Positions 2,704 to 23,685 of a stretch of DNA of 64,000 bases are shown one piece after another. The stretch spans positions 1,178,001 through 1,242,000 of the forward strand of contig NZ_PISP01000001.1 in the NCBI RefSeq assembly GCF_002834295.1, read 5' to 3'. The notes beneath the pieces are model-generated. The model was not told the DNA's origin. It saw nothing but the letters and a program-made list of their open reading frames with translations, and did not search any database. The DNA is from Rhodohalobacter barkolensis (GTDB taxonomy: Bacteria; Bacteroidota; Rhodothermia; Balneolales; Balneolaceae). How positions within the stretch are numbered: the stretch's first letter is position 1; each line of letters starts with the position of its first letter. The position numbers and the translations under genes were made by a program.

Positions 2704-4110
2704 TTAAAAGGTTGGATTAAAACGGATCCAAAAGGCAGGCTTACCATCAAACTCTTTTAAAGGCCAGGCAATCTCCGCTCTGAATGCACCTGTACCCAGT
2801 CCAAATCCGGCATCGTGATGTAAATCTGAGAATTTAAAAGATGAGAATCCTGAAGTTGCGCTGGCTTCCGGACCGTCCGCCAAAACCGGGCCGTCTACAA
2901 ATTCGGTATCTTTCGTCCAACCGGAATCCAAAAATAGTAATATGTGCATGTTATAATCTCTCATCCAAACTCCGGGTTGAGAAGAAGATCTGCCAAACTG
3001 AACTTCTAAATTACTCAAAAGCATATTGTCACCCCGAAAATATTTATATGGAGATCCCCGCAGAGTGCCCACACCACCCAAATAGAACTGTTTAAAATCG
3101 GGTACATCTCCGGTAATTCCACCGGCTTTTAATCTCCATCTCAATACTGATCCGGGTTCAAAATTGTAGAATAGCTTCAGCTCCGACCAGTATTTGTTGT
3201 AGCGGTAATTTTCATCACTTTCACTATTATCGGCAAGCTCAGCGCCAACAGTTGCTGCAAACGTAAAACGATTGGCTAAAAGAACATTCCTTGGATTAAA
3301 TGATAACGCAAAACTATATCGATCCAGATCAATTTCATCAGAACCGACATCAATGGCTGGATTGATCCGATAGGGACTCGCTTTACCAAAGAGAGACCAG
3401 GTTGTGTTTCTTTCTAAAGATCGAAAGGTATCTCTGTTGTACGAAAACGAGGCTTCAATCCATCTCTGAGTTCTGTAGGCTGCATATAATCCAAAACCTT
3501 CCATCTGATGGTAATCCTGAAAATCGTAGGAGGCAAAGAATGATGTTATGGAGTTTTCAATCAAGCCGATACGATCATGGTCTTCTGTTGATGTGGCTTT
3601 GTGAAACTCACCACCGATCATGAGTCTTTTCTCTACGCCTATCAATTTTTCAAGACCCAAAGCATATTCCCAATCTTTTGAAGCCGTTCCATAGCCAATA
3701 AATCCGTGGGGATGAATCTGTTCAATATCTAAAAAGCTGCTGTATCGGTGCCACTGCATTCTCTCCTTTCTAATTCCTAAGAACAGACCATTTACTCTGT
3801 TAAAGTGAATCATCGGAAGATTTGGATACTGACTGTATAGCTCATTACTGTAGTATGGGCCAGCCTCAAACCCTCCACCCAGGTCGACTCCGGTGTAGGA
3901 TAATCGTCGTGCCACGCGCTCTGCATCACTTCTCTCATCAGATTCAACCCGTGCAGAATCGACACTTGTTTGCTCCATTCCAAATAATTCTTCAAGAGAT
4001 TTATTGAAAATCGGATCTCGTTTGAACGGGTCCTCTTCCGACTGCTGAGCAAAAGATACAGCAGGAACGAGTACAAATAGTGTGATTGTGAAAAGTATTA
4101 AGCGTTTCAT
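2704..4110 (-). CDS. Omp85-superfamily outer-membrane barrel protein without POTRA domains
   Basis: A 468-residue protein with a Sec signal peptide ending at about residue 22 (VSFAQQ). A short acidic linker follows, then a predicted beta-barrel. The C-terminal half contains 'GGVGTLRGSPYKYF', which matches the conserved (V/L)RG loop of the Bac_surface_Ag barrel (BamA/TamA family) that folds back into the pore, and the last strand ends in Phe. There is no room for POTRA repeats, so it is not BamA itself. It lies 32 bp downstream of the SpoIIE-phosphatase gene and is probably the last gene of that minus-strand run. Substrate and role are unknown. Confidence 0.72.
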   Translation of the reverse strand: MKRLILFTITLFVLVPAVSFAQQSEEDPFKRDPIFNKSLEELFGMEQTSVDSARVESDERSDAERVARRLSYTGVDLGGGFEAGPYYSNELYSQYPNLPMIHFNRVNGLFLGIRKERMQWHRYSSFLDIEQIHPHGFIGYGTASKDWEYALGLEKLIGVEKRLMIGGEFHKATSTEDHDRIGLIENSITSFFASYDFQDYHQMEGFGLYAAYRTQRWIEASFSYNRDTFRSLERNTTWSLFGKASPYRINPAIDVGSDEIDLDRYSFALSFNPRNVLLANRFTFAATVGAELADNSESDENYRYNKYWSELKLFYNFEPGSVLRWRLKAGGITGDVPDFKQFYLGGVGTLRGSPYKYFRGDNMLLSNLEVQFGRSSSQPGVWMRDYNMHILLFLDSGWTKDTEFVDGPVLADGPEASATSGFSSFKFSDLHHDAGFGLGTGAFRAEIAWPLKEFDGKPAFWIRFNPTF

Positions 4111-4142
4111 AATTGCAGGTACGATTAACCACTGTTAAAGTT

Positions 4143-6224
4143 TCAATTTTCCGGCACTTTTAAGACCATCATCGTGATATCATCATGAGGATCAACTCTT
4201 CCGGACCAGGTTTCAGCAAGCTGATTTAATTGTTGGATGATATCCGATGAACTAAAGTCTGCAGAGTTCATCAACACATTTTCAATTTTTTCCATACCTA
4301 ATATCTCTCTTTCCGGGTTGAAAAGTTCCGTTAATCCATCACTCATGATTAGTAATACATCTCCTTCATCCAGAGTCAACGATCTCTTTTGATATGGGTA
4401 ATTTACATTTCCGCCGAGTGGCAGCCCCCTCAAGAGAATCTGTTCTACTTCATTCTTTTTTTTGGAATAGTGAAGCACAGGTGGCATTCCGGCAATGGCC
4501 AGTTCAACTTTACGCTTGTTGCAGCGCAATAATATGAATCCCATATACATCAGGTGCATATTCAAATTCCGCAGACCTGATGAAATCCTTGTAAGCATAT
4601 TTAGAAGATCCACTTCGTGAACTAACGTGTGGAAATAACTTTTTGCTGCTGCTACCATAATACCGGCTTTTAATCCGTGTCCGGTAGCATCTCCCAATGC
4701 TAATACCAGTGAACCATCTTGTTCAACACTGTAATCGTAGTAGTCTCCACCCACTTCCGTTGCCGTATCCATATACACAGCCAGATCATATTCGGGCAGA
4801 GAGGGCATTTTTTTCGGTAGCATTGATAACTGTAATGCACGAGCTTCTTCAAGCTCTGCAGATTTTCTCTTATTCTCTGCTTCCAAAAGTCGTTTCTCAA
4901 TTTCACGCTCTTTATTGATTCGCTCCTGCTCAAGCGTACGTTCTGACAGATCCTGAACCTCAATCAGCTTTTGCTGTAAATTCTTTTGAGTTGAGGCGAA
5001 CTCCCTGGATAAGAAAATGGACATGGAGAGAATCAGTAGACCGGAACCGGCCATATTGATGATTTTAACATCACCGGCCACAAATTGAAAATTTATTAAA
5101 ATGCTGATAATCAATCCTACCACAAAGAAAAGCATCCCAACACCTATGATCCAGGCCCCCGCTTTTCTTTTTCGAAACATGATGTAAAGTGTACGCAGCA
5201 ATTCTGCCACAAAAACGAGGATAATTACCTCCCTGAACCATACCAAATCCGTTGGATAAAAATAGACGAATACAGCCGAAATCAACCCAAAAGCCAACAC
5301 TACATTAGAGTAGATTGACCTCTGTTTTTGATCAATACTGTGCATTAAACGAACTGCAAAAGCCAATACAATAATCTCAAAGAAGAGTGCAGATTTTAGA
5401 AAGAAAATTGAAGCAAATGTGTCGTTTGCCATTTCAATCCGATACAGGAAATAGGTAATAAAGAGTAATCCTCCCGCAAACAGTGAAAAATAGAGGTTAC
5501 GCTTTTCCTTGGGATAGAAAAGAAACAGCAAAAAATGAATCAAGGAAAAGGTGAGTAAAATACCGGCAAAGAACATGCTTATTCCCGTCCAATCGGAGAT
5601 AAATGACAACACCTGATTTTGATGAGACTTCCAGTCTGCCAGTAAAAACCGGAATCCATTATTCCCAAACATACGCTCCGTCTCTACGTTGTTGGGGTTA
5701 ATAAAACGAACAGCAAGAGTTTGAATGCCGTTATCCGGAAATACTATGACCGGGAGCTCATTTCCACTGTACGATTCGGCCCGTTCTGGGTTTGTTGAAA
5801 ACCGCCCCAGTTCATAAATTTTCTCTCCATTCAGATAAATCTCAGAAGCTCCCAAATGGCGGTCTACAACAAGTGCCAAAGGTTTACCTACCAGCCCCTC
5901 TCCCACTTTTATCCGCTTTCTGAACCAACCTATTCCATCCCACTCTACAAACGAAAGGTCTGCCGCTGTCAGATTTGTGCTAATCACATTCCATTCGCTG
6001 TCTTCAAATTCCGGATTTGCCCACTGCACATTATCGCCGGCTTTAAATTTCCAACGGTCGCTAATGTAGATAATCCGCTCACTGTCCGACATGCTTTCAG
6101 CTGATATCTCTTCAACTTCAAACTCATCAAATTGAAAGAAGGTATCTTGCGCCCCCGCCGATTGAGCAGTCAGACCGATCAAAATTATTCCAAATAGTAC
6201 CTGTATTAACCGTTCTGTTTTCAC
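4143..6224 (-). CDS. 7TM-DISM sensor with cytoplasmic SpoIIE/PP2C-type Ser/Thr phosphatase
   Basis: A 693-residue membrane receptor. Residues 1-25 are a signal peptide. Residues 50-195 form a periplasmic beta-sandwich of galactose-binding type. About seven membrane spans (205-405) match the 7TMR-DISM fold, and a coiled coil (410-465) leads into a PP2C phosphatase (465-690). Metal-binding motifs are complete: GGDYYD with Asp494 and Asp497, GDATGHG with Asp512, then SDGLTE and DDIT near the C-terminus. Such RsbU-like enzymes dephosphorylate anti-sigma antagonists (STAS proteins) in partner-switching systems, but no STAS or anti-sigma kinase gene is visible here. The start lies 7 bp after the DUF4097 gene, which implies co-transcription. 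Confidence 0.88.
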   Translation of the reverse strand: MKTERLIQVLFGIILIGLTAQSAGAQDTFFQFDEFEVEEISAESMSDSERIIYISDRWKFKAGDNVQWANPEFEDSEWNVISTNLTAADLSFVEWDGIGWFRKRIKVGEGLVGKPLALVVDRHLGASEIYLNGEKIYELGRFSTNPERAESYSGNELPVIVFPDNGIQTLAVRFINPNNVETERMFGNNGFRFLLADWKSHQNQVLSFISDWTGISMFFAGILLTFSLIHFLLFLFYPKEKRNLYFSLFAGGLLFITYFLYRIEMANDTFASIFFLKSALFFEIIVLAFAVRLMHSIDQKQRSIYSNVVLAFGLISAVFVYFYPTDLVWFREVIILVFVAELLRTLYIMFRKRKAGAWIIGVGMLFFVVGLIISILINFQFVAGDVKIINMAGSGLLILSMSIFLSREFASTQKNLQQKLIEVQDLSERTLEQERINKEREIEKRLLEAENKRKSAELEEARALQLSMLPKKMPSLPEYDLAVYMDTATEVGGDYYDYSVEQDGSLVLALGDATGHGLKAGIMVAAAKSYFHTLVHEVDLLNMLTRISSGLRNLNMHLMYMGFILLRCNKRKVELAIAGMPPVLHYSKKKNEVEQILLRGLPLGGNVNYPYQKRSLTLDEGDVLLIMSDGLTELFNPEREILGMEKIENVLMNSADFSSSDIIQQLNQLAETWSGRVDPHDDITMMVLKVPEN

Positions 6225-17122: not shown

Positions 17123-20100
17123 ATGAATTTTACGTCCATTTTTGCTGAACACCGTACACGCAACAGGTTTTTTGCTTTTATCAGCTTCCTGTATGCATTT
17201 ATCATCTATACCCTAACCGTCGCTCCCACAACTTCTTTTTGGGACCCCGCCGAATATATTGCCATCTCCCATACGCTTCAGATTGCTCACCCGCCGGGAT
17301 CTCCATTTTTTGCAATCGTTGGGCGCATTGTTTCGATGTTTGTACCGGCAGAGTTTGTTGCACTGAGCATAAATATGATTAGTGTTACAGCCTCTGCATT
17401 CACCATCATGCTGCTCTATTTGATTGTGGTACGCCTGATTGAAGAGTGGCGCGGAAATGCAGATGATATGGACGCAATAGATAAAATCGGTCTATATGGG
17501 GGCGGACTCTTTGCAGCACTTACATTTACCGTAACTCATACACAGTGGTTTAATGCAGTTGAAGCAGAGATGTACGCTTCATCGATGTTCTTTACTGCCC
17601 TTGTGGTTTGGATGGCTTTACGATGGTCTGCTCATCATGATCAACCCTATTCTGAGCGATGGCTTATTCTCATTGCCTATATGTTTGGGATCGGTATTGG
17701 AGTTCACCTGCTTAATCTGCTTGCGCTCTTCTTTGTTGCCATGATTGTTTATTTCAAAAAACGTGAGTTTACGATACTCTCCTTTTTAGCTATGGCCGGA
17801 ATTTCAGTGGTTGGCTTTTTATCCGTCTATCCGTTGACAATTATTCACCTGCCTAACTTCGCGGGTAGAATTGGTGGAATGACCTACGGCCTGATCGGTC
17901 CAATGACGTTTGTCATTTTCATTTTTGCTGCAATAGCATTTGGCCTGTACTATACACACAAGAAAGGCATGCGTATTGCAAATATGGTACTGCTGGCCTA
18001 CACGATGATTATTATCGGGTACTCCAGTTATGCACTGATCATGATCCGCTCTCAGGCAGAACCTCCGATAGACCAAAATGATCCTTCAGAAGTTCAGGCT
18101 TTTGTAAACTACCTGAATCGTGATCAGTATGGATCGGCACCTCTTTTAAAAGGAAATACATATGACAACCGTACACAGAACATAGACCGATCTGAAGAGA
18201 CGCTTTTCCCCAGAAGACATTCAAGTCAGCCACGACATCTTGAATACTACAGGAACTTTGATTCTGATTTAGGCTATTTCTGGGAGTATCAGGTAAATCA
18301 TATGTACCTCCGCTATTTAAACTGGAATTATATTGGCCGGGAAGCCGATATTCAGGATACCGGTTGGTACTCAGGATTCTCGGATACTCGGCATGCAGAT
18401 AACCCTGCAAATACCCCCTACTTTTATCTGCCGTTTCTGTTCGGCTTGTTTGGGATTCTATATCACTTTAAAAATGATTGGAAAAGAGCTTTTGCAGTAA
18501 CTGCGCTATTTTTCCTTACCGGACTTGCGATCATTTTCTATCTCAATCAAACGCCGTTCGAACCCCGTGAACGGGATTACGCTTACGTGGGCTCATTCTT
18601 TGCCTACGCTATATGGGTTGGGATTGGTCTCACCGGAATTATGGAACTGGTCAAACAGTTTGCAGGCAATAATAAAGCCGTCACCTACAGTGTGATTGGC
18701 CTATCGTTTATTGCGGTTCCCTTTTGGATGCTCACTGAAAACTGGCACACCCACGACCGAAGTGAAAACTACGTTCCACGGGATTACGCCTACAACCTTC
18801 TCAATTCTGTAGAAGAAAATGCAATTCTATTTACCAACGGAGACAACGACACCTTTCCATTATGGTACCTTCAGGAAGTGGAAGGAATTCGTACAGACGT
18901 TCGAGTTGTTAATCTCAGCCTGTTAAATACAGAGTGGTATATCAAACAGCTGCGCGATAGACAAACTCACGAAGCTCTGCCCTTACCGATAAGGCTTACA
19001 GATGAAGAGGTGGACCAGATGACATCTCAGCTGGAACTGCATGATCCGCAGGAAATTGTGATCCCTGTGAACAAAGAACTTCTTACATCAGTTTTTGAAG
19101 CAAATCCTGATCAAATTGAGAACAACCCGGAAGGGTTTAGTGAGATCGTATCGGCCGGAGGTGCGGATAATCAAATGTTGATTAATCAAATGCTAATGGC
19201 CACGCCTTATTCACTTCCTGTTGAAGAGCTGGATAATGAAGTACGGTTTTATCTGGAGGGACGTCCGGCAGGCAGGGATAACCAAGGCAACACGAGATAC
19301 TACCTGCAAACTCAGGACCGGATGATCCTGGAAATTCTTCGGCAAAACCAGTGGTTACGGCCTGTCTATTTTGCAAATACCGTATCCAGATCCGGACTCA
19401 TGAATCTTGAACCTTACTTCCAGTTTGAAGGAAAAGCCTTCCGTATAATGCCAATCAAGCGACAAGTGGGTTCTTTTGGACATGTTGAACCTGAAGTACA
19501 TGCAGACAGACTTGAGAAGTTTGAGTTTAATGAGTGGAACTCCCCAGACGTCTATTTTGATGAAAATGTCCGCAGAATGCTCGGTAATTATCGATATGGA
19601 TTCACACAATTAGCTGACGCTTATCTGCAACAAGGTGATGTAGAACAGGCGGCATACTGGCTGAAGTACGGCGAAGATATGATTCCATTTCGGGATATTG
19701 AGAACGATTGGACCATTGCCGCTCTCTACGCCTTCAGATACATGCGTGTGGACGAAAATGAACGAGCTGTTGATTTAGCCGAATTTATACAGGAACGCCT
19801 GATGCACGATCTCAGATTTGACATGCGCGATCTGGACCGATACGAAATCCGAATGGAAAATCTGGATGAAGAAATTAGTCAGGCTCGTGCGCAAGCCAAT
19901 ACCGGCAAAGCTCAAAGTCTGCAGCGTGAACAGCAACGATATTCTCAACAGCGCGATAATGTTATTGAAGATGTCAGCTTTACGGTAAGCCGGTTAACAA
20001 TCCTTCAAAACATCTATTTTGAAACAGACCGAACTGAAAAGGCTGAAGAACTGGCCATTGAAGTTAATATTATGACCGATGGCCGTCTACCTCTTCCTGA

Positions 20101-20152
20101 GGATATTGAGGGAAGCCGTCAACAGATTGAACAATTTGGGTTGGGAGTCTGA
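17123..20152 (+). CDS. DUF2723 GT-C-fold protein (putative protein O-mannosyltransferase-like)
   Basis: A 1009-residue membrane protein. The first loop carries the DUF2723 signature 'TSFWDPAEYIAIS' and 'LQIAHPPGSPFFAIVGR', whose Asp and Glu are candidate catalytic residues in GT-C glycosyltransferases. About 12 membrane helices fill residues 15-520. The periplasmic C-terminal half includes 'NGDNDTFPLWYLQ' and ends in helical repeats ('LADAYLQQGDVEQAAYWLKYG'). Bacteroidota use such proteins in protein or surface glycosylation, which is an inference here because no sugar-nucleotide genes adjoin. It is probably monocistronic. Confidence 0.88.
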   Translation: MNFTSIFAEHRTRNRFFAFISFLYAFIIYTLTVAPTTSFWDPAEYIAISHTLQIAHPPGSPFFAIVGRIVSMFVPAEFVALSINMISVTASAFTIMLLYLIVVRLIEEWRGNADDMDAIDKIGLYGGGLFAALTFTVTHTQWFNAVEAEMYASSMFFTALVVWMALRWSAHHDQPYSERWLILIAYMFGIGIGVHLLNLLALFFVAMIVYFKKREFTILSFLAMAGISVVGFLSVYPLTIIHLPNFAGRIGGMTYGLIGPMTFVIFIFAAIAFGLYYTHKKGMRIANMVLLAYTMIIIGYSSYALIMIRSQAEPPIDQNDPSEVQAFVNYLNRDQYGSAPLLKGNTYDNRTQNIDRSEETLFPRRHSSQPRHLEYYRNFDSDLGYFWEYQVNHMYLRYLNWNYIGREADIQDTGWYSGFSDTRHADNPANTPYFYLPFLFGLFGILYHFKNDWKRAFAVTALFFLTGLAIIFYLNQTPFEPRERDYAYVGSFFAYAIWVGIGLTGIMELVKQFAGNNKAVTYSVIGLSFIAVPFWMLTENWHTHDRSENYVPRDYAYNLLNSVEENAILFTNGDNDTFPLWYLQEVEGIRTDVRVVNLSLLNTEWYIKQLRDRQTHEALPLPIRLTDEEVDQMTSQLELHDPQEIVIPVNKELLTSVFEANPDQIENNPEGFSEIVSAGGADNQMLINQMLMATPYSLPVEELDNEVRFYLEGRPAGRDNQGNTRYYLQTQDRMILEILRQNQWLRPVYFANTVSRSGLMNLEPYFQFEGKAFRIMPIKRQVGSFGHVEPEVHADRLEKFEFNEWNSPDVYFDENVRRMLGNYRYGFTQLADAYLQQGDVEQAAYWLKYGEDMIPFRDIENDWTIAALYAFRYMRVDENERAVDLAEFIQERLMHDLRFDMRDLDRYEIRMENLDEEISQARAQANTGKAQSLQREQQRYSQQRDNVIEDVSFTVSRLTILQNIYFETDRTEKAEELAIEVNIMTDGRLPLPEDIEGSRQQIEQFGLGV

Positions 20153-20235: not shown

Positions 20236-20703
20236 ATGATTCATGAATTCACAAAAGAGAACATCACCACCATTGGTGACATTCTGAATACCAAACCCAA
20301 ACCGTTGGGTGATGATGTTTTTAGATTCGAGGTTACCAATGAGGAAGCAGGCAGTAAACTTGCTTTGGAGATCCATCTCGGCCTTGAAGTGGACGATGAG
20401 CGGATGAATATGGTTACAGTCTACTCAGGAAGTACTTTTCTTCAGCTCCACAACTGCACGGCTTTCATTGCCAGTGATATCCTGAAGCAGGTTACCTTTT
20501 TTGGGAAAAACGGAACCAATACAACCGGTTTAATTGTGGAGCAGAGTGCCGGATGCAGTATGTATGCAAACGTAAACGATGCCGTTTTGAAAGGTGACTT
20601 TACTAAATTGCCCGAAGACCTGATGATGTGCGGAGTAGCCATGTCTCTGACCGATACCGCCGATCTGGATAACTTCTCCTTTGATGATGACGAACTTTCC
20701 TGA
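20236..20703 (+). CDS. Unknown protein co-transcribed with ybeY
   Basis: A 155-residue soluble protein, acidic at both ends (C-terminal 'FSFDDDELS'). The core is a mixed alpha/beta pattern with 'GSTFLQLHNCTAFIASD' and 'LIVEQSAGCSMYANV'. There is no signal peptide or membrane segment. I do not recognise the family. Its 3' end overlaps the ybeY start by about 20 bp, so translation is probably coupled and a role near ribosome maturation is possible but unproven. Confidence 0.7.
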   Translation: MIHEFTKENITTIGDILNTKPKPLGDDVFRFEVTNEEAGSKLALEIHLGLEVDDERMNMVTVYSGSTFLQLHNCTAFIASDILKQVTFFGKNGTNTTGLIVEQSAGCSMYANVNDAVLKGDFTKLPEDLMMCGVAMSLTDTADLDNFSFDDDELS

Positions 20704-21154
20704 CATCCCGACTGAGCCGGATGATAAACTGATTATCAATAATGAGTCGGGAGAAGCTGTGCCTGTTGAGGAGCAGGTACTGCTGAAACTGATAAATATT
20801 ACTGAAGAGAAAGAGACGATCCGTTATAAAGAGATTGAATTGGTCTATGTTGATGAAAAAGAGATTGTCCGAATTAACAAAGAGTTTCTGGACCGCGATT
20901 ACATAACCGATATCATTACCTTTCGGTATGACGAAAATAATCCTGATGCCATTGAGGGAACTCTCTACTGTTGTGCACCCCGAATTGCAGAACAGAGTGC
21001 CGAATTTGATAACGACCTGAAAACAGAATATTTGAGAGTGTTTGTTCACGGCCTGATTCATCTTGCCGGATATGACGATCAAACAGCTAAAGAGAAAGAG
21101 CGGATGACAGAAAAAGAGGATCAGTACCTGGAAGCACTTAACTCATTGTCGTGA
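20684..21154 (+). CDS. ybeY: Endoribonuclease YbeY (rRNA maturation / ribosome quality control)
   Basis: A 156-residue metal-dependent RNase that processes 16S rRNA 3' ends. The start is the ATG at 20684 or 20687; an in-frame TTG precedes them at 20681. 'TDIITF' and the zinc motif 'VHGLIHLAGYDDQT' are present, giving His122 and His126. The third position of the usual H-G-x-x-H-x(5)-H motif is Asp132, a change I recall as common in Bacteroidota YbeY proteins, so the enzyme is probably active. It overlaps the upstream unknown gene and the downstream topoisomerase-like gene. Confidence 0.92.
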   Translation: MMTNFPDIPTEPDDKLIINNESGEAVPVEEQVLLKLINITEEKETIRYKEIELVYVDEKEIVRINKEFLDRDYITDIITFRYDENNPDAIEGTLYCCAPRIAEQSAEFDNDLKTEYLRVFVHGLIHLAGYDDQTAKEKERMTEKEDQYLEALNSLS

Positions 21155-22515
21155 GTGCCGCGGCCAGCTATACCCTTCTAATTGTTGAATCTCCGGTGAT
21201 TGCCCGCATCATTCAACGGGTTGCTCCCTCTTCTGTTTATGTTTTATCTACGAATGGATATGCGTGGAAACCGGTATATGACGCCGAAAGAAATCAACTC
21301 AAAGCAAAAGCGGATCCGGATCAACTTGGTTTTCGTAAAGAACTGAAGCAGCAGGCAAGCTGGGCCGGAAATATCATCATTGCAACGGACCCTGATCCCT
21401 CTGGAGATTTTATAGCGTGGTCTATTTGTAAATTTTTAAAGAATCCATCCATTAAGCGATCACACATTCAGCATTTAGGTCGAAAAGGGATTGAACGCTT
21501 AATCAGCAGTGCTGAAGTCATTCAAACCGATCTGCTGGAACTTAGACTCAAAAACCGGTCACTCATCCGTCATCAATGGAATAAAACGGGACGTCGACCA
21601 TCGATGGAAATTGCCGCACTCTCTTCAACCTTTTCATCATACTTTGCCTATCAGCACTTCGCAGATCAAAAAGGTCAAATCTGGTATTCGAACCGATCAA
21701 TTCAATGCGCCTCGGATGAATGGATTCAGGTTCAAAATTCCATGTCAGACTCAGAGTATCACTCTGCAAATCCACTCTCTACATTTGATCTGCTTCAGCT
21801 TGCTTACGAAAAGGACATATTCAGATCCTTTGCCAATGCTCAGGAAACACTCCAACAGTTATTTACTCACACGCTTGATTACAGTGAAGAGTCCTTGATC
21901 AGCTATCCTCGTACGTCGGCAAACTCATACTTCAGTGAAACCTGGGCATCCTTACAACAGCAATTTTTTCAGCTTAATCATACGGGTGAGTTCAAGCCGA
22001 TGTTCATTCGAAATATTGCAGGACAGGAGGTGTCCCATGAGAGCCTTTACCCTATTAGCCTGACCAACACTCCGGATAAAGTGGGTGGTGAGCTCCTGAG
22101 TACTTTGAGAGACCTCTACGATCTGATTTACCATCAAACCCTGAGGGCAATCACGGTTCCAACCGAAAAGCATATGGCTTACCAAACTGCATTTCATCAG
22201 GATGTTCAATTCTACAGCACCACGAATAAATCTGAAATTTCGAACACAGAACTGCTGCCCATTCGCACAATTTCTGAAATCGGTTCCCTGTTATCTTCTC
22301 ATCGTGTTTTATCACCCTCTTCATTCGGAGAAAAACTGGATCGATGGATATCACAGAAATATCTTGAAATGGACGGAGCTTTTCTGAAACCCGGTAAATA
22401 TCTGGCTCCATATGTAAACGATGGGCCACAATATGCAGATCAGATTGAACAGCTCTTTAATTTGATAGATGAACAGAATCTGAAAGCTGAAACTATTGCG
22501 TCAATACTTTCGTGA
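21151..22515 (+). CDS. Compact, highly divergent type IA DNA topoisomerase-like protein
   Basis: A 454-residue protein starting at GTG 21151, which overlaps the ybeY stop by 4 bp. The N-terminal TOPRIM region reads 'LLIVESPVIARII' (Glu13) and 'IIIATDPDPSGDFIAW', so Asp80 and Asp82 are kept but the usual third acidic residue is Ser84. Domain III/IV landmarks follow: 'TGRRPSMEIAAL' (compare AGRVQS), 'LSTFDLLQLAY', and 'LISYPRTSANSY' with the probable catalytic Tyr252 and Arg254. 'SHESLYPI' matches the family HEAIRPT box. Zinc-finger domains are absent. It is shorter than a normal TopA core of about 600 residues. It may be a specialised or regulatory paralogue. Activity is uncertain. Confidence 0.75.
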   Translation: MSAAASYTLLIVESPVIARIIQRVAPSSVYVLSTNGYAWKPVYDAERNQLKAKADPDQLGFRKELKQQASWAGNIIIATDPDPSGDFIAWSICKFLKNPSIKRSHIQHLGRKGIERLISSAEVIQTDLLELRLKNRSLIRHQWNKTGRRPSMEIAALSSTFSSYFAYQHFADQKGQIWYSNRSIQCASDEWIQVQNSMSDSEYHSANPLSTFDLLQLAYEKDIFRSFANAQETLQQLFTHTLDYSEESLISYPRTSANSYFSETWASLQQQFFQLNHTGEFKPMFIRNIAGQEVSHESLYPISLTNTPDKVGGELLSTLRDLYDLIYHQTLRAITVPTEKHMAYQTAFHQDVQFYSTTNKSEISNTELLPIRTISEIGSLLSSHRVLSPSSFGEKLDRWISQKYLEMDGAFLKPGKYLAPYVNDGPQYADQIEQLFNLIDEQNLKAETIASILS

Positions 22516-22566: not shown

Positions 22567-23685
22567 ATGAACATTTCTGAACCCAATGACCGTTTAAAAG
22601 AAGAACAGTCTTCAGACAGAAAAGATCTCAGATCAATTCTTACTCGCCACATAAACTTAGACCTTCCCCAATCTTCAGCCCCTCCCTCTGAAGAACCGCC
22701 TAAATTTCGACAAACTACCGGGTTGCTTACGTTTTTGAAACCGATACCCTTTCTGCTTGGCTTAGTCTTTCTGTTCTCCTTTTACTGGGATTTTCCCGAA
22801 TTAACTTTCTCATTTATGAGCTTTGAATTCCCTTTGAATGGAATTCTACGGATAATCAGCGTGAGTGGCATGATTGGTTTCCTAACCAATTGGATTGCCA
22901 TAACCATGCTTTTTCGCCCCCTAAACAAACGTCCCCTGCTTGGACAAGGTCTGATTCCGGCTCAAAAAGATCGCATAGCCTGGCGACTCTCTACAGCTGT
23001 TGCTGAGGATTTAATCAACCCGGACCTCATCAAATCGAAAATTGAAGACTCCAATGTGATTCAAAACTACCGGAGTCAACTTCAAAACAGCCTACTCTCA
23101 TCCGTCGAAAGTGAAACATTCCGGGATGAGTTTAAAGATTGGGTTGTAGATTACGTTCACAGTGTAGTCCATGATAATTCTTTCCGCGAACGGGTAAGTT
23201 TCTACGTATCAAAAGAGATTGAAACCGGGTTAATAGATAAGCCTGTTGAGCGAACCGCACTGAAAACTTATACGATTCTAAAGGGACAATCACTGCAGGA
23301 AATGATCGAAAATTCGATTGCAGATTTACCGATTACCGTAGAGCGAAACTTCGGATTTATTGATGAATTTTTTGATGAACTTCCGGCCAAGGCAGAGGAG
23401 GTATCAGAGGAGTTTGACCGGTTAATTACAGAGTTAATTTATAAACTGATTAACCGTCTCGACATCCGGAAATTTGTAGAAGAAAATCTTCAACAGTATG
23501 ATGAGAAACGGCTGGAACTGATGATCAAAAATGCAACGAACGAACAACTCAAAACCATTCAGTATTTAGGTGCCATTTTAGGGGTGATTGGGGGCTTTGT
23601 AATATGGGAACCGGTGCTTAGCCTAACTTTTTTAACCCTTTTAGGTGCCACTGTCTTTCTGACAGATCGTGCACTTTACCAATAG
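22567..23685 (+). CDS. DUF445 family membrane protein (YheB-like)
   Basis: A 372-residue protein. A polar N-terminus (1-60) precedes a hydrophobic pair of helices (58-115). The conserved 'LFRPLNKRPLLGQGLIPAQKDRIAWRL' block then identifies DUF445. A long helical, charged central region follows, and the protein ends in two hydrophobic helices (about 333-368). DUF445 proteins are membrane-associated and of unclear function. It starts 51 bp after the topoisomerase-like gene and probably shares its transcript. Confidence 0.85.
   Translation: MNISEPNDRLKEEQSSDRKDLRSILTRHINLDLPQSSAPPSEEPPKFRQTTGLLTFLKPIPFLLGLVFLFSFYWDFPELTFSFMSFEFPLNGILRIISVSGMIGFLTNWIAITMLFRPLNKRPLLGQGLIPAQKDRIAWRLSTAVAEDLINPDLIKSKIEDSNVIQNYRSQLQNSLLSSVESETFRDEFKDWVVDYVHSVVHDNSFRERVSFYVSKEIETGLIDKPVERTALKTYTILKGQSLQEMIENSIADLPITVERNFGFIDEFFDELPAKAEEVSEEFDRLITELIYKLINRLDIRKFVEENLQQYDEKRLELMIKNATNEQLKTIQYLGAILGVIGGFVIWEPVLSLTFLTLLGATVFLTDRALYQ

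Follow-up and report, generated by a model that had tools for sequence, protein, structure and literature searches.

The residues on which bacterial type IA topoisomerases depend have been described in both E. coli TopA (EcTopA) and mycobacterial enzymes. In crystals of MtbTopI, Mg2+ is bound by E24, D111 and D113, which correspond to E9, D111 and D113 of EcTopA (PMC6101483), and the third acidic residue of the Toprim domain is not among the three catalytic residues assigned to this domain in recent reviews (PMC10969213, PMC7587558). The K13A/R substitutions in E. coli TopA greatly reduce cleavage and relaxation (PMC5983628), while 1750 of 1750 TopA sequences have R168 and the R168A substitution costs more than 80-fold in activity (PMC6954433). 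In MtbTopI, K28 (equivalent to K13) is separated from the scissile phosphate by more than 6.8 A and R194 touches the phosphate backbone (PMC6101483); we take R194 to be the Arg of the GRVQ motif. RNA cleavage by M. smegmatis TopI survives mutation of the Toprim glutamate, and a part in rRNA processing has been proposed for this enzyme (PMC7587558, PMC10969213). In Neisseria, the genes dprA, smg and topA are co-transcribed, the function of smg being described as unknown (PMC5817196). Here we analyse a compact relative of these enzymes, referred to as topo', found in a 64,000-nucleotide stretch of the Rhodohalobacter barkolensis genome (the window; all coordinates given as ranges without a locus prefix are positions within it, and all these features lie on its forward strand). 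No earlier description of the topo' family was found in a literature search.

Results

The topo' gene (21151..22515) has a GTG start and encodes a compact type IA topoisomerase-like protein of 454 residues, recognised from its open reading frame, Pfam, hhalign and dN/dS. The original prediction, drawn from this stretch of DNA alone, had this frame starting within ybeY, and indeed the topo' start and the ybeY stop share 4 nt (GTGA), an overlap seen again in most same-genus relatives. A Toprim domain (Pfam, 9.9e-9) and a Topoisom_bac core (5.8e-9; 35.9 bits for a cut-off of 35.1) are combined within the single chain. The NCBIfam TopA equivalog profile (TIGR01051) yields 51.6 bits, below its curated cut-off of 456.4, and the TopB profile (TIGR01056) 17.4 bits, below its cut-off of 515.75. 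The Pfam scan found no RNA-binding domain. The protein has two cysteines only and no CxxC, confirming the predicted absence of zinc fingers, and its pI is 6.1, versus 8.0 for TopA. Structure prediction gave a pLDDT of 36 from the single sequence and of 38 from three sequences, both too low for a usable model.

As judged from its sequence, topo' is a real, divergent homologue across the whole type IA topoisomerase core. The profile of its family matches solved TopA structures at 6.7e-23, and hhalign aligns the profile of its relatives with 30 TopA over 401 columns (probability 99.8, E=3.5e-28), spanning residues 5-415 of topo' and 16-550 of TopA, which is nearly the entire core; the corresponding score is 69 with five TopB, versus 230 with TopA. 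In the phylogenetic tree, topo' forms a type IA-like clade of its own (support 100) with a stem of 2.07 substitutions per site. This clade attaches near TopB on long branches, which may be a case of long-branch attraction, because profile similarity favours TopA. A canonical topA is present elsewhere in the genome (G000:C3:290612-291928; 408 bits; open frame of 874 residues), so that the anticipated separate clade beside a canonical enzyme is borne out. Judged by eye, this topA adjoins a peroxiredoxin-like gene, and no link between it and smg was seen in the source genome. The topo' gene tree is broadly in step with the families. Two other origins were considered and rejected. A recent duplication of the local topA conflicts with the tree, where the topo' clade falls apart from Balneolales TopA. 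For a mobile-element origin, we found no phage match, no relative in viral contigs and no notable PHROG or PADLOC family, and the plasmid matches are other type IA enzymes with about 21-35% identity.

Conservation was examined in an alignment of 35 topo' relatives, compared with 30 TopA and 5 TopB. Six residues, E13, D80, D82, Y252, R254 and H296, equivalent to E9, D111, D113, Y319, R321 and H365 of EcTopA, are invariant (35/35). The codon of Glu13, the Toprim glutamate, is at 21187..21189; codons 80-84 (21388..21402) specify Asp80-Pro-Asp82-Pro-Ser84, aligned to D111, D113 and E115, with both Asp invariant and Ser or Ala at the third position; codons 252-254 (21904..21912) specify Tyr-Pro-Arg, aligned to Y319-x-R321; and the codon of His296 is at 22036..22038. 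D80, D82, S84 and Y252-P-R254 had thus been read correctly from the start, Tyr252 being the presumed nucleophile and Arg254 the presumed transition-state arginine. Of the positions that every TopA and TopB of the alignment share, the topo' family keeps E9, D111, G116, Y319, R321 and H365 in 35/35 sequences. D113, which does not vary in TopA, is likewise present in 35/35; its alignment column contains Gly in 3/5 TopB, probably through misalignment. Equivalents of all three Mg-binding residues (E9, D111, D113) are therefore among those retained. Ser14, directly after the Toprim glutamate, is found in 35/35 sequences, a position where TopB has Lys. Pairwise identity among the 35 sequences averages 36% with a minimum of 21%, and invariant columns number 21 out of 454; the chance that all six catalytic residues fall among these 21 is about 5e-9, assuming exchangeable columns. 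Invariance of E13, D80, D82, Y252, R254 and H296 at identities down to 21% does not support the suggestion that topo' is a non-catalytic relative.

The altered Toprim triad, which had been noted in the window's protein, extends to the whole family: the E115 position, Glu in 30/30 TopA and 5/5 TopB, is Ser in 33/35 and Ala in 2/35 topo' sequences. Since the third acidic residue lies outside the Toprim catalytic set of the reviews, Ser84 alone is no sign of inactivity, and the main oddity of topo' is not this triad but the loss of strand-gripping residues. K13, constant in TopA, is replaced by Ile, Leu, Met or Val in 34/35 sequences and by Thr in one; the H33 position is Tyr/Phe; the R168 position is Asn in 25, Arg in 8 and another residue in 2 of the 35; and D172, the S192-x-G-R-V-Q197 stretch and R207 are lost as well. 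E115, K13, H33, R168, D172 and S-x-GRVQ are invariable across the TopA set and largely so in TopB, and R168, D172 and S-x-GRVQ, lost or replaced in the topo' family, are constant in all 30 TopA and 5 TopB. In the window's gene, codons 135-156 (21553..21618) align to R168...S192-x-GRVQ197, with Asn in place of R168 and the GRVQ loop deleted, the lost positions within the weakly conserved region 135-170 being aligned only approximately. The original prediction that all core landmarks appear in order consequently holds for domain 1 (Toprim) and domain 3 (Tyr), and fails for K13, H33, E115, R168, D172 and the S192-x-G194-R-V-Q197 loop (EcTopA numbering), which are missing.

The same division is visible at the level of domains. 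All segments of the four-domain type IA core align; the catalytic domains are full-size (D1, 102 residues in topo' versus 110 in EcTopA; D3, 134 versus 127), whereas D2 (55 versus 90) and D4 (142 versus 260) are reduced to about half, given what we take to be the E. coli domain borders. The C-terminal DNA-binding part is absent. A type IA protein of 544 residues encoded by a plasmid of Bosea sp. RAC05 provides a control for compaction: it keeps K13, H33, D-D-E, R168, D172, S-x-G-R-V, Y-P-R and the His, and differs at Q197 and D323 and also at the less constant S10, M320 and E366. The losses in topo' are thus not due to small size alone, because this Bosea protein keeps nearly all of these residues.

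Other observations concern plasmid-borne genes. The Bosea gene (L118:2995-4629) is annotated only as 'toprim domain-containing'. On a Hymenobacter plasmid, a type IA topoisomerase is apparently split into two overlapping ORFs (L151:2495-3568 and 3565-4587), both annotated as DNA topoisomerase. A Limosilactobacillus fermentum plasmid (L152) carries an unannotated topA-like frame of 382 residues after dprA and before an annotated integrase, which suggests a truncated topA.

Despite its divergence, topo' shows the marks of selection. In the topo' pairs with the lowest dS, dN/dS (NG86) is about 0.16, 0.07, 0.11, 0.09 and 0.10, only the first two pairs having a dS below 1. Rapid decay by stop codons or frameshifts was looked for in close relatives, and the frame is open in 24/24 same-genus relatives of the first search, contig ends apart. 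Given the invariant catalytic residues and a dN/dS of 0.07-0.16, topo' is not a dead copy. It evolves fast: for canonical TopA, comparison of the same genomes gives identities of 81-84% within the window's family and 66-69% across families, versus 34-42% and 26-32% for topo'. The protein is thus constrained at its active site and free elsewhere.

The gene occupies a fixed slot, which begins with a TMEM260-like membrane protein gene (17123..20152; Pfam 5.7e-59), the upstream end of the conserved block. Next come a gene for a 155-residue protein without any Pfam or NCBIfam match (20236..20703), syntenic across the order and a fixed member of the locus, and ybeY (20681..21154; Pfam 1.2e-27; NCBIfam TIGR00043 above cut-off), which encodes an rRNA maturation RNase. 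By blastp, copies of the 155-residue protein across Balneolales share about 48-78% identity with that of the window. Topo' then follows, either directly or, in two families (f3 and f4), after a DUF494 (smg) gene (4e-12 to 9e-10; L066:6012-6458, L073:2829-3299 and L071:10131-10580). Downstream, a DUF445 membrane protein gene (22567..23685 in the window; Pfam 1.2e-35) flanks the slot in most genomes, whether or not these have topo'. It follows topo' in families f1 and f4; in genus g34 of family f3, its place is taken by a gene encoding solute-binding and ion-channel domains. Where topo' is absent, DUF445 comes directly after ybeY in seven Balneolaceae genera and directly after smg in family f5.

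Within the genus, topo' was found in all 24 relatives of the first search, among them Rhodohalobacter halophilus (L034; Balneolaceae); a later search gave no match in two genomes of very low completeness (57 and 64%). It also occurs in three other genera of the same family (g21, g24, g193), three genera of f4 (g4, g29, g31) and one of f3 (g34), and is absent from many genera of Balneolales. Outside this order, no topo' was found among 245 class and 395 phylum genomes (overlapping samples), where the other matches were longer frames of 637-931 residues, which we interpret as ordinary type IA enzymes. The most parsimonious scenario is a single gain predating the divergence of the families, with several subsequent losses, a later transfer into the same slot being possible. 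Within the class, DUF494 is likewise found only in Balneolales, and it is absent from the source genome and nearly all its family. Topo' without Smg and Smg without topo' both occur, and therefore each can stand alone. Genome G461 (71% complete, contamination 4%) has two ybeY loci (L177 and L182), with smg but no topo' after one and topo' but no smg after the other; the assembly is possibly mixed.

Discussion

We consider it reasonably probable that topo' is still active and represents a lineage-specific offshoot of the type IA topoisomerases with an altered substrate. By analogy with EcTopA and MtbTopI, Tyr252 would attack a single-strand phosphodiester with the aid of Arg254 to form a 5'-phosphotyrosyl bond, while Mg2+ binding and the proton shuttling required for cleavage and religation would fall to Glu13, Asp80, Asp82 and His296. 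According to the alignment, the elements that hold the strand and build the arch have been stripped or remodelled, and for this reason topo' would be expected to relax supercoiled DNA poorly, a task presumably performed by the normal TopA of the cell. Its substrate may be another single-stranded nucleic acid, or a partner may restore the missing grip; the fixed place after ybeY or smg faintly suggests a partner in RNA or single-stranded DNA metabolism. Two considerations speak against an active enzyme with an altered substrate: the combined loss of K13 and R168 could be enough to prevent cleavage, and fast evolution and repeated loss fit a dispensable protein. A more specific proposal, which we regard as rather unlikely, is that the type IA centre has been reused with YbeY and/or Smg to cut RNA or a particular single-stranded DNA structure, either reversibly or in one direction only, without supercoil relaxation. 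If true, such a reuse for another job would add a new functional class to the type IA superfamily.

The position of the gene also raises the question of a role on RNA, as an RNA topoisomerase or through cleavage at the same site, with YbeY as a partner in the maturation of rRNA or the repair of RNA. Activity on RNA is known for type IA enzymes, the topo' start overlaps the ybeY stop across most of the genus, and the loss of DNA-gripping residues and a pI below that of TopA fit a changed substrate. However, YbeY function does not need topo', since many relatives have ybeY without it; moreover, the Toprim glutamate is strictly kept in topo' though dispensable for the M. smegmatis RNA reaction, and the protein has no recognisable RNA-binding domain. 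The link with ybeY is positional and not exclusive, as smg sits between the two genes in two families and smg-topA is itself a known pair (PMC5817196). We therefore view an RNA-acting partner of YbeY as a reasonable but rather unlikely hypothesis.

Topo' could also be a catalytically dead structural relative that binds single-stranded DNA or RNA or regulates TopA, and ordinary activity should be lowered by each of the losses of K13, E115, R168 and the GRVQ loop. In a dead enzyme there would be no obvious reason for keeping Tyr252, Arg254, His296, Glu13, Asp80 and Asp82 strictly conserved in 35 divergent sequences, which makes a dead relative improbable. An ordinary decaying topA duplicate would agree with the fast evolution of topo' and with its absence from many genera of the order, but it is very hard to reconcile with the open frames in the genus, a dN/dS far below 1, a slot fixed over three families and a tree in which topo' is no recent copy of Balneolales TopA. 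Hence an active enzyme with an altered substrate is the explanation that we retain.

Because type IA enzymes occur universally and show hardly any variation in their active-site residues, a natural family with the reaction centre but without the otherwise constant gripping residues shows which parts are separable. Topo' is thus a test object for the roles of K13, E115, R168 and the GRVQ loop, and possibly shows how type IA enzymes move to another substrate. In addition, the neighbouring smg gene provides a way to approach Smg (DUF494), a protein whose function in bacteria is given as unknown in PMC5817196.

Among described systems, TopA (TIGR01051, PF01131 and PF01751) shares with topo' the order of the core and the equivalents of E9, S10, D111, D113, Y319, R321 and H365. 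It differs by its length (about 850 residues versus 454) and its C-terminal domain, and by the presence of E115, K13, H33, R168, D172 and S-x-GRVQ. TopB (DNA topoisomerase III, TIGR01056) resembles topo' in having Y-P-R at the nucleophile and no long C-terminal domain, but it possesses the Lys beside the Toprim Glu and the GRVQ motif, and its profile similarity is much weaker than that of TopA. M. smegmatis TopI offers a precedent for a type IA enzyme tied to rRNA maturation (Rani et al. 2020, as cited in PMC7587558 and PMC10969213); this enzyme is, however, the canonical TopA of its cell, whereas topo' is a second, stripped protein known from sequence. The dprA-smg-topA operon of Neisseria and others (PMC5817196) is reminiscent of families f3 and f4, where smg directly precedes topo'. 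The differences are that no dprA was recognised near topo', whose upstream partner is ybeY, that topo' is divergent as a topoisomerase and that the source genome lacks DUF494. Finally, the Bosea sp. RAC05 plasmid protein (WP_069052547.1) is, like topo', compact, with Y-P-R and homology over most of the core; unlike topo', it keeps K13, H33, D-D-E, R168, D172 and S-x-GRV.
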